Both the position numbers and the translations under genes were made by a program. Shown one piece after another: positions 3,188 through 6,706 of a stretch of DNA of 7,692 nt. This DNA is from Sulfurimonas sp. (GTDB lineage Bacteria > Campylobacterota > Campylobacteria > Campylobacterales > Sulfurimonadaceae): contig JAIOSY010000163.1 of NCBI GenBank assembly GCA_021107375.1, positions 1 through 7,692 of the forward strand, read 5' to 3'. The notes below the pieces were generated by a model. That model had not been told where the DNA came from and searched no databases. It saw only the letters and a list, made by a program, of their open reading frames with translations. How positions within the stretch are numbered: the stretch's first letter is position 1; every line of letters begins with the position of its first letter.

Positions 3188-3427
3188 TTAATTATCTAAT
3201 TTATTAATTTTTCTAACTGTTCTAATCACTTCATCATCATCCAACTGTCCTAACATTTTCATAACAACAGAAGCAGCTTGTGGTTTTGCACGACCTAACT
3301 TCCAATCCTGATATGTTCGCATAGATATTCCCAGTGAAAGAGCCATATTTTTTAAAGATATTTTTTTTCCATTATTTTGAGATTCTAGTGAATTGTGAAG
3401 TATGTTAAATAGATCATCGATTTTCAT
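3188..3427 (-). CDS. small XRE/Cro-type helix-turn-helix transcriptional regulator
   Basis: With the preferred start this is a 79-residue protein, essentially a single HTH domain. Residues 26-49 (KNMALSLGISMRTYQDWKLG, then RAKP) match the pattern of lambda-Cro/XRE regulators: an LA-like first helix, a GIS turn, a recognition helix and a W-x-x-G-x-x-x-P close. The reading frame stays open to 3472, giving 15 more residues (MLKCIFKYIFRIILF), but that stretch is hydrophobic, has no Shine-Dalgarno and overlaps a TATAAT promoter element, so it was not chosen. The preferred ATG (3425-3427) also lacks a Shine-Dalgarno but sits exactly where transcription from that -10 would begin, which fits a leaderless mRNA. 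Inverted repeats upstream suggest that it controls itself and the next gene. The target genes are unknown. Confidence 0.8.
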   Translation of the reverse strand: MKIDDLFNILHNSLESQNNGKKISLKNMALSLGISMRTYQDWKLGRAKPQAASVVMKMLGQLDDDEVIRTVRKINKLDN

Positions 3428-3463
3428 AAAAAGAATTATACGGAATATATACTTAAATATACA
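3428..3463 (-). promoter_or_regulatory. predicted promoter of XRE regulator, possibly leaderless
   Basis: Reading the minus strand, TATAAT (3435-3440) is followed by TCTTTTT and then the ATG at 3427. Transcription normally starts about seven bases after the -10, so the transcript would begin at or one base before the start codon. At the -35 distance (3458-3463) lies TGTATA, part of a GTATATTTA-like word that also belongs to the inverted repeat cluster. A bound regulator there would block the promoter. Confidence 0.5.
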
Positions 3464-3490
3464 TTTTAGCATAGTTATGTTGTATATTTA
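3454..3490. repeat. 10-bp inverted repeat, TAAATATACA / TGTATATTTA
   Basis: TAAATATACA (3454-3463) and TGTATATTTA (3481-3490) are perfect reverse complements separated by 17 bases. The left arm covers the -35 position of the regulator's promoter. This layout suits an operator pair for the XRE protein. AT-rich sequence raises the chance of accidental repeats, so the functional reading is inference. Confidence 0.55.
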
Positions 3491-3562: not shown

Positions 3563-3610
3563 AAAGAAAAAAAGAGTAACTTTAAATTATTGAAATTTAA
3601 AGCTACTCTT
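3563..3610 (-). terminator. strong Rho-independent terminator of the cyclase/FapA operon
   Basis: On the minus strand, AAGAGTA (plus 3604-3610) pairs with TACTCTT (3572-3578). After one C-A mismatch, a nine-base stem continues (3594-3602 with 3580-3588) around a five-base loop (3589-3593). A T-rich tract, TTTTT-C-TTT (3571-3563), follows the stem directly. The stop codon of the FapA-like gene (3603-3605) lies inside the upstream arm, so the terminator ends the three-gene unit immediately. Confidence 0.88.
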
Positions 3611-5276
3611 GGAGTTTTATTATTTGGTTTGTTGGGTGTAGGGTTATTTTGTCTTCTGTGATTTCAAGATAAAATGGGGTATATTCTTTAGAGTTAGTTT
3701 TGAAAGTAATTTCATTTTCATCATCTATGCTAAAAATTATAGTATTTAATCCTATTAAAGGTTTTTCTATAGATATTTTTGCTCTGTTTACAGAGTTTTG
3801 TATATCTAGTATCTCTTGTTTTAATTTTTTAATTTCAGATTTTATACCATTAACTATAGAAGAGTTATGTCGATTGGCCTCTTCAAGAGAGAATTCTAAC
3901 TCTTCAATCTCCTCTTTTATAAACTTTATTTTACTTATTAAAATAGGTACATCTTTGTAGTTGATTTTAAGTTTGTTGTCTTCGCCACTAATCAAGTTAA
4001 TTGAGATTGAATTTGAAGCATAAACTTTAAGATTGTTTTTTACATGTCTAATTTTGACATCTTGAGCGTAAATGGAACCACCAAGACAAGTTTGTATATT
4101 TGCACTTGTAGCGTGAACTTCTCCACCTTCTAAGAGATTTATTTTAGCCTCTTTGCATCTCAACTTCCCCTTATGCCTATTGATTGTTGCGTATTTTGCA
4201 TATTGAGTAGAATCTTTATGAGTCGCTCCGTCAATTTTAAGGTTAATAGATTCTATTATGCTATTGGCTCCAATGTGACCGCTTACATTAATGGTTTCTG
4301 AAACTAATTTAACTCCCTCTCCAACACTATCTTTATTTGTGTCTTTTTGAGAAACTTCTATCTCTATGTTATTGGTTTCTTCTGAGGCTATTGAATCTTG
4401 AATTCTTGATAGTCTTGCCATTTTGATTTTTTGATCTACACTTATATTTGTATCACTATATTGTACAAACCCTTTTATTTTACTAATATAACTTTTTTTA
4501 TTTTTTACCTCTATAATTTTTATACTATTTAAATCAATCTCTTGTTTTAAATCTTCTTGATTGTTTGCGTACTCCGTACCAATCTCTTTTCCATAACAAT
4601 TTAGCCCATTCTTACCAAATTGTGGTTTATAAAAATCTATTAAAATTTCATCTTTTTCTACTTCTATAATTTGATAGTTATTCTCTTTTTGTAAGAATTT
4701 TATCACAAGTTTACTCTCTTGAGTTAGTTCAGGTAAGATACCGTCAAATAGAGGTAGTTTTATATTTTTTATAAATTTTTTAGCATATATATATTTTACT
4801 AGTGCTTTTAAATTTTTAATCATAGATTCATCAAACAGTCCTACGATAATTGAGTTAGAAGCTTTTATTTTATTAATCTCTCTAAAAAGTAAAGATAGTA
4901 ATTCTTTAGGTTGATAGTTCTGATAAGGAATATTTGAATCAGGGGATAATATTATTTTTGGATGACTAGAATACTCCCCTAGTTCTATTTTATAGTTTAG
5001 TTTGATTTTGTGTTTATTAATTTCAAAAATAGTGATATCATAGTATTGAGAAAATTCAATGTGTTCATTTATTATTTGATTTTTATCCGTATATCTTGTT
5101 TTTATACTTTGATTTGAAAGTTCAAACTCTGTTTGTGAAGAACTTTTTATATAAGAGTTGATATTGTTTATTTTAAAATCACATAATGATTGTTTTATAG
5201 AGTTTTTAGTTGCAAATTCTCCTATGGCGTCATTAATGTTTTTTGTAGTAATCTCTTGGGTTATTTGTTTAGCCAT
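3603..5276 (-). CDS. FapA/DUF342-family protein
   Basis: This 557-residue protein belongs to the FapA (DUF342) family; the Vibrio vulnificus member takes part in polar flagellum assembly. The N-terminal half (about 1-215) is a variable alpha/beta region. The family-type turn FYKPQFGKNGLNCYGKEIG starts at Phe215, close to the P-x-GxxGxxxxGxxI pattern. A Gly/Asn-rich repeated beta region follows (about 325-430), with INVSGHIGANS, ATINRHKGKL, INLLEGGEVHA and IYAQDVKI, as expected of a right-handed beta helix like those of bactofilins or MinC. Residues 445-505 form a Glu/Lys-rich coiled coil. A short beta tail (about 510-557) ends the protein. There is no signal peptide or transmembrane segment, so it is cytoplasmic. 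It starts one base after the previous gene's stop and has no strong Shine-Dalgarno of its own, which implies coupled translation. No flagellar gene is nearby, so a flagellar role is not supported by context; a scaffold for the cyclase unit is an alternative. Confidence 0.85.
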   Translation of the reverse strand: MAKQITQEITTKNINDAIGEFATKNSIKQSLCDFKINNINSYIKSSSQTEFELSNQSIKTRYTDKNQIINEHIEFSQYYDITIFEINKHKIKLNYKIELGEYSSHPKIILSPDSNIPYQNYQPKELLSLLFREINKIKASNSIIVGLFDESMIKNLKALVKYIYAKKFIKNIKLPLFDGILPELTQESKLVIKFLQKENNYQIIEVEKDEILIDFYKPQFGKNGLNCYGKEIGTEYANNQEDLKQEIDLNSIKIIEVKNKKSYISKIKGFVQYSDTNISVDQKIKMARLSRIQDSIASEETNNIEIEVSQKDTNKDSVGEGVKLVSETINVSGHIGANSIIESINLKIDGATHKDSTQYAKYATINRHKGKLRCKEAKINLLEGGEVHATSANIQTCLGGSIYAQDVKIRHVKNNLKVYASNSISINLISGEDNKLKINYKDVPILISKIKFIKEEIEELEFSLEEANRHNSSIVNGIKSEIKKLKQEILDIQNSVNRAKISIEKPLIGLNTIIFSIDDENEITFKTNSKEYTPFYLEITEDKITLHPTNQIIKLQE

Positions 5277-5277
5277 T

Positions 5278-5937
5278 CTAATAGTCTAATAAATCACTAT
5301 AATCATATTTAGAAAAATCAAGATACAGTTTTCCATTTTGTTGAATAATTCTAACATCATTATTGTGAACAGCTAAAAATCTTTTTTTAATAACCTTTCT
5401 TTGATAAGATTTTAAAGAGAGTGTTCTTAGATAAGTTCGAAGTTCTTTAAGTTTAGGTTTTTCTTCTTGTTTTATTATTTTTTCAGTTTCAATAGTTTCA
5501 ACATCATGAACATTACTGTTTGGATTATAATCCATAATCAGTTTTTTATTTACAAGCTCTAATATGCTTTTTAATTGTTCATCTTTTGCATTATAAACTT
5601 GCTCTATTTTTTGCATCTCATTACGAAGCATCTGCTCTTTATCATCTATAAGTTTATCTATCTTTTCCTCAAGTTGTACAATTTTATGCTTTAGTTGTTG
5701 ATTCTCTCTCTGATAGAGTGCCAAGACAGTCGCTACAGTTGTTTTCGGTTTTGCAATGGCTTTAGATGTAGCAATAGTTTCATTGTTATCTTGATTGTTT
5801 TTAGGTTTTTGGGGTGTTATAATATATGTTATACCATTTTCAATAATATAATTTAATCTTTTAGTTTTTAATCTTGAATTAATCATCTCTTTTGACATTT
5901 TAAAATTTTTTGAATATTCATCTATTGTTAGTCTCAT
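5278..5937 (-). CDS. putative HTH and coiled-coil protein, unknown function
   Basis: This 219-residue protein has a three-part layout. Residues 1-42 (MRLTIDEYSKNFKMSKEMIN onward, ending GITYIITP) resemble the excisionase/MerR-like winged helix: LTIDEYSK as first helix, MSKEMINSRLK as recognition helix and a short beta wing. After a Thr/Lys-rich linker (43-68), residues 70-133 form a strong coiled coil with Leu/Ile heptads (ENQQLKHKIVQLEEKIDKL and beyond). The C-terminal region (163-219) is basic and then acidic/aromatic (KKRFLAV, KLYLDFSKYDYSDLLDY) and could be a docking segment. The layout recalls the small Campylobacterota DUF3972-type proteins, but membership is unproven. The start is fixed by AAGGGA (5946-5951) eight bases upstream and by the ATGA overlap with the cyclase stop. 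It lies between a cyclase and a FapA-like protein and may link them. Confidence 0.8.
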   Translation of the reverse strand: MRLTIDEYSKNFKMSKEMINSRLKTKRLNYIIENGITYIITPQKPKNNQDNNETIATSKAIAKPKTTVATVLALYQRENQQLKHKIVQLEEKIDKLIDDKEQMLRNEMQKIEQVYNAKDEQLKSILELVNKKLIMDYNPNSNVHDVETIETEKIIKQEEKPKLKELRTYLRTLSLKSYQRKVIKKRFLAVHNNDVRIIQQNGKLYLDFSKYDYSDLLDY

Positions 5938-6602
5938 CTATTTTTTCCCTTATTTATTATAGAGTTGAAATTTATGTTTGGTGGATTAATTATTCCTGGT
6001 TCTCTTAACCAAACGATTGTTCCTTTTTTCTCATGATAGTGTTTATCTTTAAAACTATACATCTCAGAATGTTTAAAACCTTTTTTAACCAATAAAGCAT
6101 CAAAGTCTTTAAATATGGATAAAAATTTTCTTAAGCTTTCGTATGCTGATTCAGATGCCATAACTGTTGATATGGAAAAACTTTTTAATTCTAAATATCT
6201 AGCACAGTCATTAAGTCCAGCTCCAATATAGTTAGTATGACCTAAAATATCAGTAAATTCATAAATATCACCAGTATGTGCAGCAATTCTCATCCCTTTA
6301 AAATATCTAAATTTCTTAGATATTTGTTCTGATAAGTGATTAAAACTAAGACCTAAAATTATTCCATAACCTTTAAGTCTAGGGTTTAGAATACAGTAAA
6401 ACCCATCTCCTGTAGATATGAGTCCGAGTACAAATTTTTCTAATGGCATTCCAGAATTTGCTAGCATCTGTAACATCATTTTTTTATAAGTAATTGTTAC
6501 AAAATTTATAATCTCTAGCTGTTGTAATGAATCTAATTTTGAAAAATCAATTATATCAGTAAGAATAATATCAGTGTTTAACACTTTTTTATTTTTTGGC
6601 AT
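5934..6602 (-). CDS. class III nucleotidyl cyclase-like protein
   Basis: The 222 residues contain one class III (adenylate/guanylate) cyclase homology domain, about 8-165, with no sensor or membrane part. Visible motifs are DIILTDIIDF (metal-binding Asp16) and STGDGFYCIL (second metal Asp66). MRIAAHTGDIYEF and YIGAGLNDCARYLEL follow, the latter with the transition-state Asn131 and Arg135 spaced as in active cyclases. The residues that normally select the base are unusual: the Lys four positions before Asp66 is Ile62, and the Asp/Thr/Cys seven before Asn131 is Asn124. The enzyme may therefore use another nucleotide or only bind one. The C-terminal 50 residues (KDKHYHEKKGTIVWLREPGI) match nothing I know. 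The ATG has no Shine-Dalgarno; a -10-like TAAAAT lies upstream. It is the first gene of the unit with the HTH/coiled-coil and FapA-like genes. Pycsar-type uridylate or cytidylate cyclases are a conceivable relative, but no Pycsar effector is adjacent. Confidence 0.82.
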   Translation of the reverse strand: MPKNKKVLNTDIILTDIIDFSKLDSLQQLEIINFVTITYKKMMLQMLANSGMPLEKFVLGLISTGDGFYCILNPRLKGYGIILGLSFNHLSEQISKKFRYFKGMRIAAHTGDIYEFTDILGHTNYIGAGLNDCARYLELKSFSISTVMASESAYESLRKFLSIFKDFDALLVKKGFKHSEMYSFKDKHYHEKKGTIVWLREPGIINPPNINFNSIINKGKNR

Positions 6603-6627
6603 CTATATATTCGCTGTTTTTTTGGTT

Positions 6628-6656
6628 ATTTTATCATAAAATTTCTTTAATAAAAG
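6628..6656 (-). promoter_or_regulatory. tentative promoter of the cyclase/FapA operon
   Basis: On the minus strand, TAAAAT (6628-6633) is a one-mismatch -10 element 25 bases before the cyclase ATG, with expected transcription start near 6621. The -35 position (about 6651-6656, CTTTTA) is weak. The position in the gap divergent from fbaA makes a promoter likely, but the exact element is uncertain. Confidence 0.35.
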
Positions 6657-6673
6657 TTCTTTTAACACACTAT

Positions 6674-6706
6674 TGGTATAATTACAAAATTATATTTTTT
6701 TAAGGA
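6674..6706 (+). promoter_or_regulatory. extended -10 promoter and Shine-Dalgarno of fbaA
   Basis: TGGTATAAT (6674-6682) is a perfect extended -10, with transcription expected to start near 6689. AAGGA (6702-6706) lies six bases before the ATG at 6713. The -35 region is not recognisable, which an extended -10 can compensate for. The short leader holds nothing that looks like a riboswitch. Confidence 0.65.

Follow-up and report, generated by a model that had tools for sequence, protein, structure and literature searches.

Gene content and distribution of the operon

The stretch of DNA analysed here (hereafter the window) comprises 7,692 nucleotides of contig JAIOSY010000163.1 from Sulfurimonas sp. 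(GCA_021107375.1; G000 in our set), a draft genome of 316 contigs that is 71.5% complete. Three adjoining open reading frames (ORFs) lie on its minus strand, at 6602-5934 (222 amino acids, aa), 5937-5278 (219 aa) and 5276-3603 (557 aa). The first gene (5934..6602), hereafter CYC, encodes a stand-alone protein with a predicted class III nucleotide-cyclase fold. The second (5278..5937), hereafter HTHCC, encodes a predicted DNA-binding adaptor, recognised by its ORF, structural model, fold matches and the presence of HTH_17 in its paralogues, while the third (3603..5276), the FapA-like gene, encodes a divergent full-length homologue of Campylobacterota FapA, recognised by its ORF, the FapA_N domain and profile alignment (hhalign). 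The stop codon of CYC (TGA) and the start codon of HTHCC (ATG) overlap in the ORF reading as an ATGA at 5937-5934, which likely couples the translation of both genes, and one base (5277) separates the HTHCC stop from the FapA-like ATG. In relatives the gap between CYC and HTHCC varies widely, mostly from -11 to 27 nt, and the exact ATGA overlap is not conserved. The coordinates agree with an earlier annotation made from the letters alone (the sequence-only reading), which had described a self-contained three-gene unit.

The distribution of the three genes was followed in 37 genomes of the genus (G000-G036). An HTHCC orthologue was found in 35 of them (all except G020 and G034, the latter with a contig ending near fba). 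In the window, the operon is flanked upstream by the divergent fba gene (F_bP_aldolase, from 6713) and downstream by a small helix-turn-helix (HTH)-like gene, an unknown gene and hup (HU). Both fba and hup were found beside HTHCC in 32 of the 35 genomes each, and none of the 35 lacks both; missing neighbours are mostly due to contig ends, and G036 carries other genes on the fba side. The complete trio is present in 11 genomes, CYC without the FapA-like gene in seven, the FapA-like gene without CYC in 12, and neither in five. Here we counted as present a FapA-like gene cut by a contig end (G008), a broken FapA-like gene (G036) and a CYC split between contigs (G033), while the broken CYC remnants in G003 and G010 were counted as absent and thus demonstrate that CYC has been lost. 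The presence of CYC and of the FapA-like gene is independent (Fisher p 0.72), and an HTHCC tree from a quick method, on which 8 of 32 inner branches are starred, requires at least six changes between presence and absence for either outer gene. A fixed trio was therefore rejected, and the unit is self-contained only in part, as each outer gene is absent in many relatives. Nor are the three genes mostly apart in relatives, a pattern that the sequence-only reading had also considered: every CYC and FapA-like gene seen in the genus genomes accompanied HTHCC.

In addition, the contigs of 87 relatives were scanned for CYC only, with 80 loci kept, some of them from genomes already in our set. HTHCC directly follows CYC in 79 of these loci, the exception being L176 (the G040 locus). 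After HTHCC, the FapA-like gene is present in 30 loci and absent in 39 with at least 1700 nt visible, while 10 end too soon to judge. Downstream, hup was found in 58 loci, and the other 22, except L131 and L176, all end within 2.9 kb of CYC. The gene in front of CYC is fba in at least 38 of the 80 and mostly another gene in the rest, often, where the record is of Sulfuricurvum type, a gene that encodes about 500 aa. Considering this pattern together with that in the genus genomes, HTHCC is the hub of the operon, and CYC and the FapA-like gene are optional partners. That the genes are merely co-transcribed neighbours without a common task would fit the independent gain and loss of the outer genes, but these were never apart from HTHCC in the genus, CYC was apart once in 80 loci, and the association holds although each outer gene has repeatedly changed presence on the tree, so we regard this explanation as very unlikely. 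In a few relatives without the FapA-like gene, another gene lies behind HTHCC (L044 4970-6877, 635 aa; L120, L126, L129), whose only match was a weak one to Glyco_hydro_17, below the cut-off.

The three proteins and their relatives

Structure prediction and fold comparison gave CYC a class III nucleotide-cyclase fold with no sensor domain, as proposed from the sequence. The two metal-binding Asp (D16, D66) and the transition-state Asn/Arg (N131, R135) are present, whereas I62 stands where the purine-selecting Lys is expected; N124 occupies the other base-selecting place. Among 201 CYC relatives, D16 and D66 were each found in 199, N131 in 195, R135 in 194, and all four together in 192. The purine-selecting place (four residues before the second Asp) is V or I in every one of the 201, in contrast to the Lys of all 12 canonical cyclases compared from the relatives. 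Six relatives (P0024, P0033, P0054, P0055, P0071, P0092) lack both N131 and R135 and possibly represent a catalytically dead branch. The median ratio of nonsynonymous to synonymous substitution rates (dN/dS) is 0.048 (46 pairs), which indicates strong purifying selection.

CYC thus shares its predicted fold, metal Asp and Asn/Arg pair with the class III cyclases (PF00211, including the pyrimidine cyclases of the PycC type; background in the available part of PMC11224242), but differs from them by its V/I, the lack of a sensor domain and the position of its gene before one whose product likely binds DNA, and by its sequence: the window protein has no Pfam match, PF00211 included, five of 48 CYC members matched PF00211 weakly (best E 0.013), and a PF00211 search of the relatives' genomes listed none at CYC loci, while canonical cyclases scored above the cut-off in 33 of 60 relatives, though not in G000. 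No CHASE2 match was found in the CYC family, no usable family in an NCBIfam search, and nothing useful in a PDB sequence search with the CYC profile. As far as the accessible text of PMC9239204 goes, adenylate cyclases occur in 21% of Campylobacterota species, were found by PF00211 and PF01295, and all carry CHASE2; these share phylum and fold with CYC, whose family lies outside both PF00211 and CHASE2. Precedent for cyclase-like families of this kind comes from DUF2652 (PMC4886424, in the portion available), whose proteins are likewise soluble, single-domain, recognised by fold and in possession of the metal Asp, but whose mycobacterial members have a Lys/Glu pair; DUF2652 was not among the Pfam matches shown for the CYC family.

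The HTH and coiled coil read in the middle gene were supported. HTHCC is predicted to consist of a MerR-like winged helix (residues 2-40), a coiled coil (68-137) and a C-terminal domain (163-217), its model (pLDDT 82.5) shows the putative winged helix followed by a 70-residue helix, its fold matches include RacA and pSK1 Par, and HTH_17 was found in its paralogues. A PDB sequence search with the HTHCC profile returned nothing useful. DUF3972 (PF13118) was matched weakly by 20 of 42 HTHCC members at E ≤ 1 (best 5.1e-5) and not by the window protein; this family comes from the same phylum and, in the one sequence read, has an HTH-like start and a coiled coil, but is encoded by a separate, shorter gene adjoining purE, and HTHCC has an extra C-terminal domain. 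HTHCC is also under purifying selection (median dN/dS 0.062, 40 pairs). One paralogue is encoded behind yajQ; its placement in a cell-shape operon was considered and dropped when the neighbour proved to be yajQ.

The FapA relationship of the third gene was confirmed by its alignment with classical Campylobacterota FapA (PF20250/PF03961) over the full length (hhalign probability 100, E 2.8e-68, 533 columns), although at about 25% identity, and with a protein that is some 80 residues shorter and encoded behind HTHCC. Its FapA_N region (200-275) scored 25.3 bits, below the cut-off of 27, while 27 of 28 members of the FapA-like alignment matched FapA_N at E ≤ 0.01. The beta-solenoid domain PF03961 gave no match at E ≤ 0.01 in these 28 members and none at 0.1 in three FapA proteins from the genus, so we infer the beta-helix of the FapA-like protein from its family only. 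A PDB sequence search with its profile gave nothing useful, and its dN/dS is 0.095 from a single usable pair. FapA has been treated in Borrelia (PMC11607428, partial text). In six of six loci (L187, L189, L191 and L193 from the genus, L195 and L196 from others; neighbours assigned by Pfam on L187 and by BLAST on the others) classical FapA lies in the order murJ-FapA-ruvA-ddl-murF, and it also adjoins murJ on a short contig of the window's own genome (L190), while L188 and L194 carry further FapA copies in other places. The idea that FapA-like homologues always sit in flagellar operons without the cyclase hence does not apply, as classical FapA is non-flagellar in the loci read.

Across 60 relatives, CYC was matched in 22; HTHCC, counting either paralogue, was present in 41, and some kind of FapA in 51. 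A CYC profile search recovered 29 of 398 genomes in the order, 25 of them in the window's family (one weak), and 30 of 397 in the phylum, 28 in the family, the two genome draws overlapping. In G040 (L078 5740-6393) a CYC relative is followed on its own strand by flagellin-type, flaG, fliD and fliS genes, and a search from this protein gave 26 proteins. In G056 (L079 14493-15491) a relative with a coiled-coil-like tail precedes an Epimerase_2 (neuC-like) sugar cluster at a contig end, and G382 gave one weak match. These two loci, together with the naming of FapA for flagellar assembly, could point to a motility regulator, in which the cyclase family would be of flagellar origin and the FapA-like protein would link to flagellar placement. 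However, they are the only two clear loci out of the family, the genus neighbours are fba and hup, and the classical FapA of the phylum lies outside flagellar operons in the loci read, which makes such a role quite unlikely.

A defence role, also raised by the sequence-only reading, was not upheld. In its favour, PycC (8jsz) shares the fold of CYC (rank 36 among its fold matches), and a weak, distant CYC relative in G079 is encoded behind a ThsB-type TIR gene, near a Cas6 gene. On the other side, PADLOC had no match for CYC, the FapA-like protein or the G040 cyclase, and gave two weak matches only for HTHCC (best E 0.0017, over the helical part); Pfam and PADLOC scans of the window's three proteins detected no effector domain, and the neighbours of CYC are HTHCC and the FapA-like gene; the site is constant, beside fba and/or hup, in all 35 genus genomes with HTHCC there; and a single-sequence query found no relative on viral contigs. 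A Pycsar-like anti-phage module is therefore extremely unlikely, and the defence candidate was discarded. At the G079 locus itself (L192 5970-7720), the gene behind the TIR gene encodes a class III cyclase (PF00211, 23.1 bits), and the two look like a Pycsar-type pair.

A possible signalling switch

We tentatively propose that this Sulfurimonadaceae operon is built around HTHCC, with a class III-fold cyclase and a FapA-type protein as optional partners, and that a cyclic mononucleotide made by CYC would switch the activity of HTHCC on DNA. The proposal draws on observed gene order, co-occurrence, conservation and homology, and on predicted folds and active-site residues. CYC would act as a homodimeric cyclase, presumably with an unusual base choice given the absence of the purine-selecting Lys. 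Its product, or CYC itself, would act on HTHCC, probably made from the same mRNA. HTHCC, dimerised via its coiled coil, may contact DNA through the N-terminal winged helix and act by transcription or DNA anchoring, while the FapA-like protein, where present, might serve as a scaffold, either holding HTHCC in place or titrating it. The yajQ-linked paralogue hints at the same logic, by analogy with a YajQ protein from elsewhere that acts via a DNA-binding partner: XC_3703 binds cyclic di-GMP and lets the LysR-type XC_2801 bind the flhB promoter region (PMC4199771, from the accessible part). Both cases would combine a nucleotide-related protein with a DNA-binding one, but HTHCC is not LysR-type and the pairing here is one of genes.

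Several observations weigh against this proposal. The N-terminal fold matches of HTHCC are modest (Z ≤ 6.2) and none of its Foldseek matches reaches E 0.001, although this comparison may miss some winged-helix families and absence there carries no meaning. HTHCC contains no recognised nucleotide-binding domain, and in a domain-wise comparison of conservation none of its domains clearly varies with the presence of the cyclase or the FapA-like protein; the one suggestive value, for the coiled coil against cyclase presence (12 of 300 shuffles, uncorrected for relatedness), is hard to read. Moreover, an intact cyclase is missing from 17 of the 35 HTHCC genomes, in which HTHCC thus functions without one, and cyclic-mononucleotide-binding (CRP-type, PF00027) domains in 59 of 60 relatives mean that the nucleotide could act elsewhere. 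The CYC profile matches canonical cyclases weakly (probability 38, E 3.3e-4), and nine of the 201 relatives lost at least one catalytic residue, including the six that have neither N131 nor R135.

These losses, the V/I at the purine-selecting place, the yajQ next to the HTHCC paralogue and the precedent in the available text of PMC4199771 would also fit a sensor without turnover, in which the cyclase fold of CYC binds a nucleotide and CYC then binds HTHCC directly, as with YajQ and its LysR-type regulator. The joint retention of the four catalytic residues in 192 relatives and the low dN/dS of CYC argue against it, and we find it rather doubtful. Alternatively, HTHCC could be an adaptor that organises DNA or anchors the chromosome, built like RacA or pSK1 Par, with the FapA-like protein as a cell-pole or envelope scaffold and the cyclase tuning the link. 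The winged helix with its long helix, the RacA and Par fold matches, the proximity of hup to the operon end and the reported recruitment of Vibrio FapA by the pole protein HubP are consistent with this, but it appears unlikely to us. A bolder version seems quite improbable. In it, a lineage-specific CYC would produce a non-standard cyclic nucleotide, perhaps a pyrimidine one, to control a RacA-like DNA tether on a FapA-type scaffold, and this messenger would set where in the cell the chromosome or a set of promoters is anchored.

Returning to the switch we propose, the cyclase and HTHCC, sometimes with a FapA-type gene, would form a small, so far undescribed system; in line with the sequence-only reading, no description of this gene combination was found among the titles listed from the literature searched (mostly without subscription papers). 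The CYC family represents a second family of cyclase fold in Campylobacterota, conserved and with a strict genomic placement, outside the PF00211 used by the survey in PMC9239204 (as given in its accessible text). Its hosts are sulfur-oxidising bacteria, in which cyclic-mononucleotide signalling seems little studied. With the yajQ-linked paralogue, one likely DNA-binding family is placed twice beside nucleotide-related proteins, and the CYC-HTHCC pairing allows a direct test of the nucleotide made and of HTHCC as its possible output.

Transcription signals and flanking genes

Comparison with relatives revealed a conserved divergent promoter common to fba and the operon (6628..6671, minus strand for the operon), consisting of an inverted-repeat element at 6671-6653, degenerate in the window (14 of 19 bases), and an extended -10 TATGATAAAAT at 6638-6628. 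At least 13 of the 19 bases of GTTCATTTAAAAGAACTTT were found in 70 of 71 fba-operon spacers (all 19 in 21 loci), and TATGNTA(A/G)AAT in 62 of 71; the consensus was derived from this same set, in which several loci are one genome fetched twice. In many relatives the conservation is near base-for-base. The promoter region noted earlier thus holds by comparison, while a promoter scan of the window was no better than shuffles (46 vs. 44.4). The inverted repeat GTTCNTTTAAANGAAC was rejected as a regulon operator, with 16 places against 19 for a reversed control (8 genomes, ≤ 1 mismatch). Since it is not enriched elsewhere and is retained at fba in G020 (18 of 19 bases), which is without HTHCC, we interpret it as parts of the divergent promoters that overlap, and not as a site for HTHCC. 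At the far end of the operon, the terminator scan identified an intrinsic-terminator-like hairpin with a T tail (3572..3610, minus strand; 17 pairs of which three are G-C, loop of 5, followed by TTTTTCTTTA), in agreement with the terminator read there before; the window has four such sites vs. 2.0 ± 1.4 in shuffles.

Near hup, the small HTH-like protein encoded on the minus strand at 3188-3472 is 79 aa long in most relatives and matched no family above the cut-off, with best-match identities of 85-96% across the loci compared. Further along the same strand (1000-2514), a 504-aa protein with weak AAA_19 and NERD matches is encoded between hup and msrB. Its gene is absent from some relatives, and its best-match identity of 31-63%, vs. 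at least 70% for hup and most msrB, indicates faster divergence than its neighbours.

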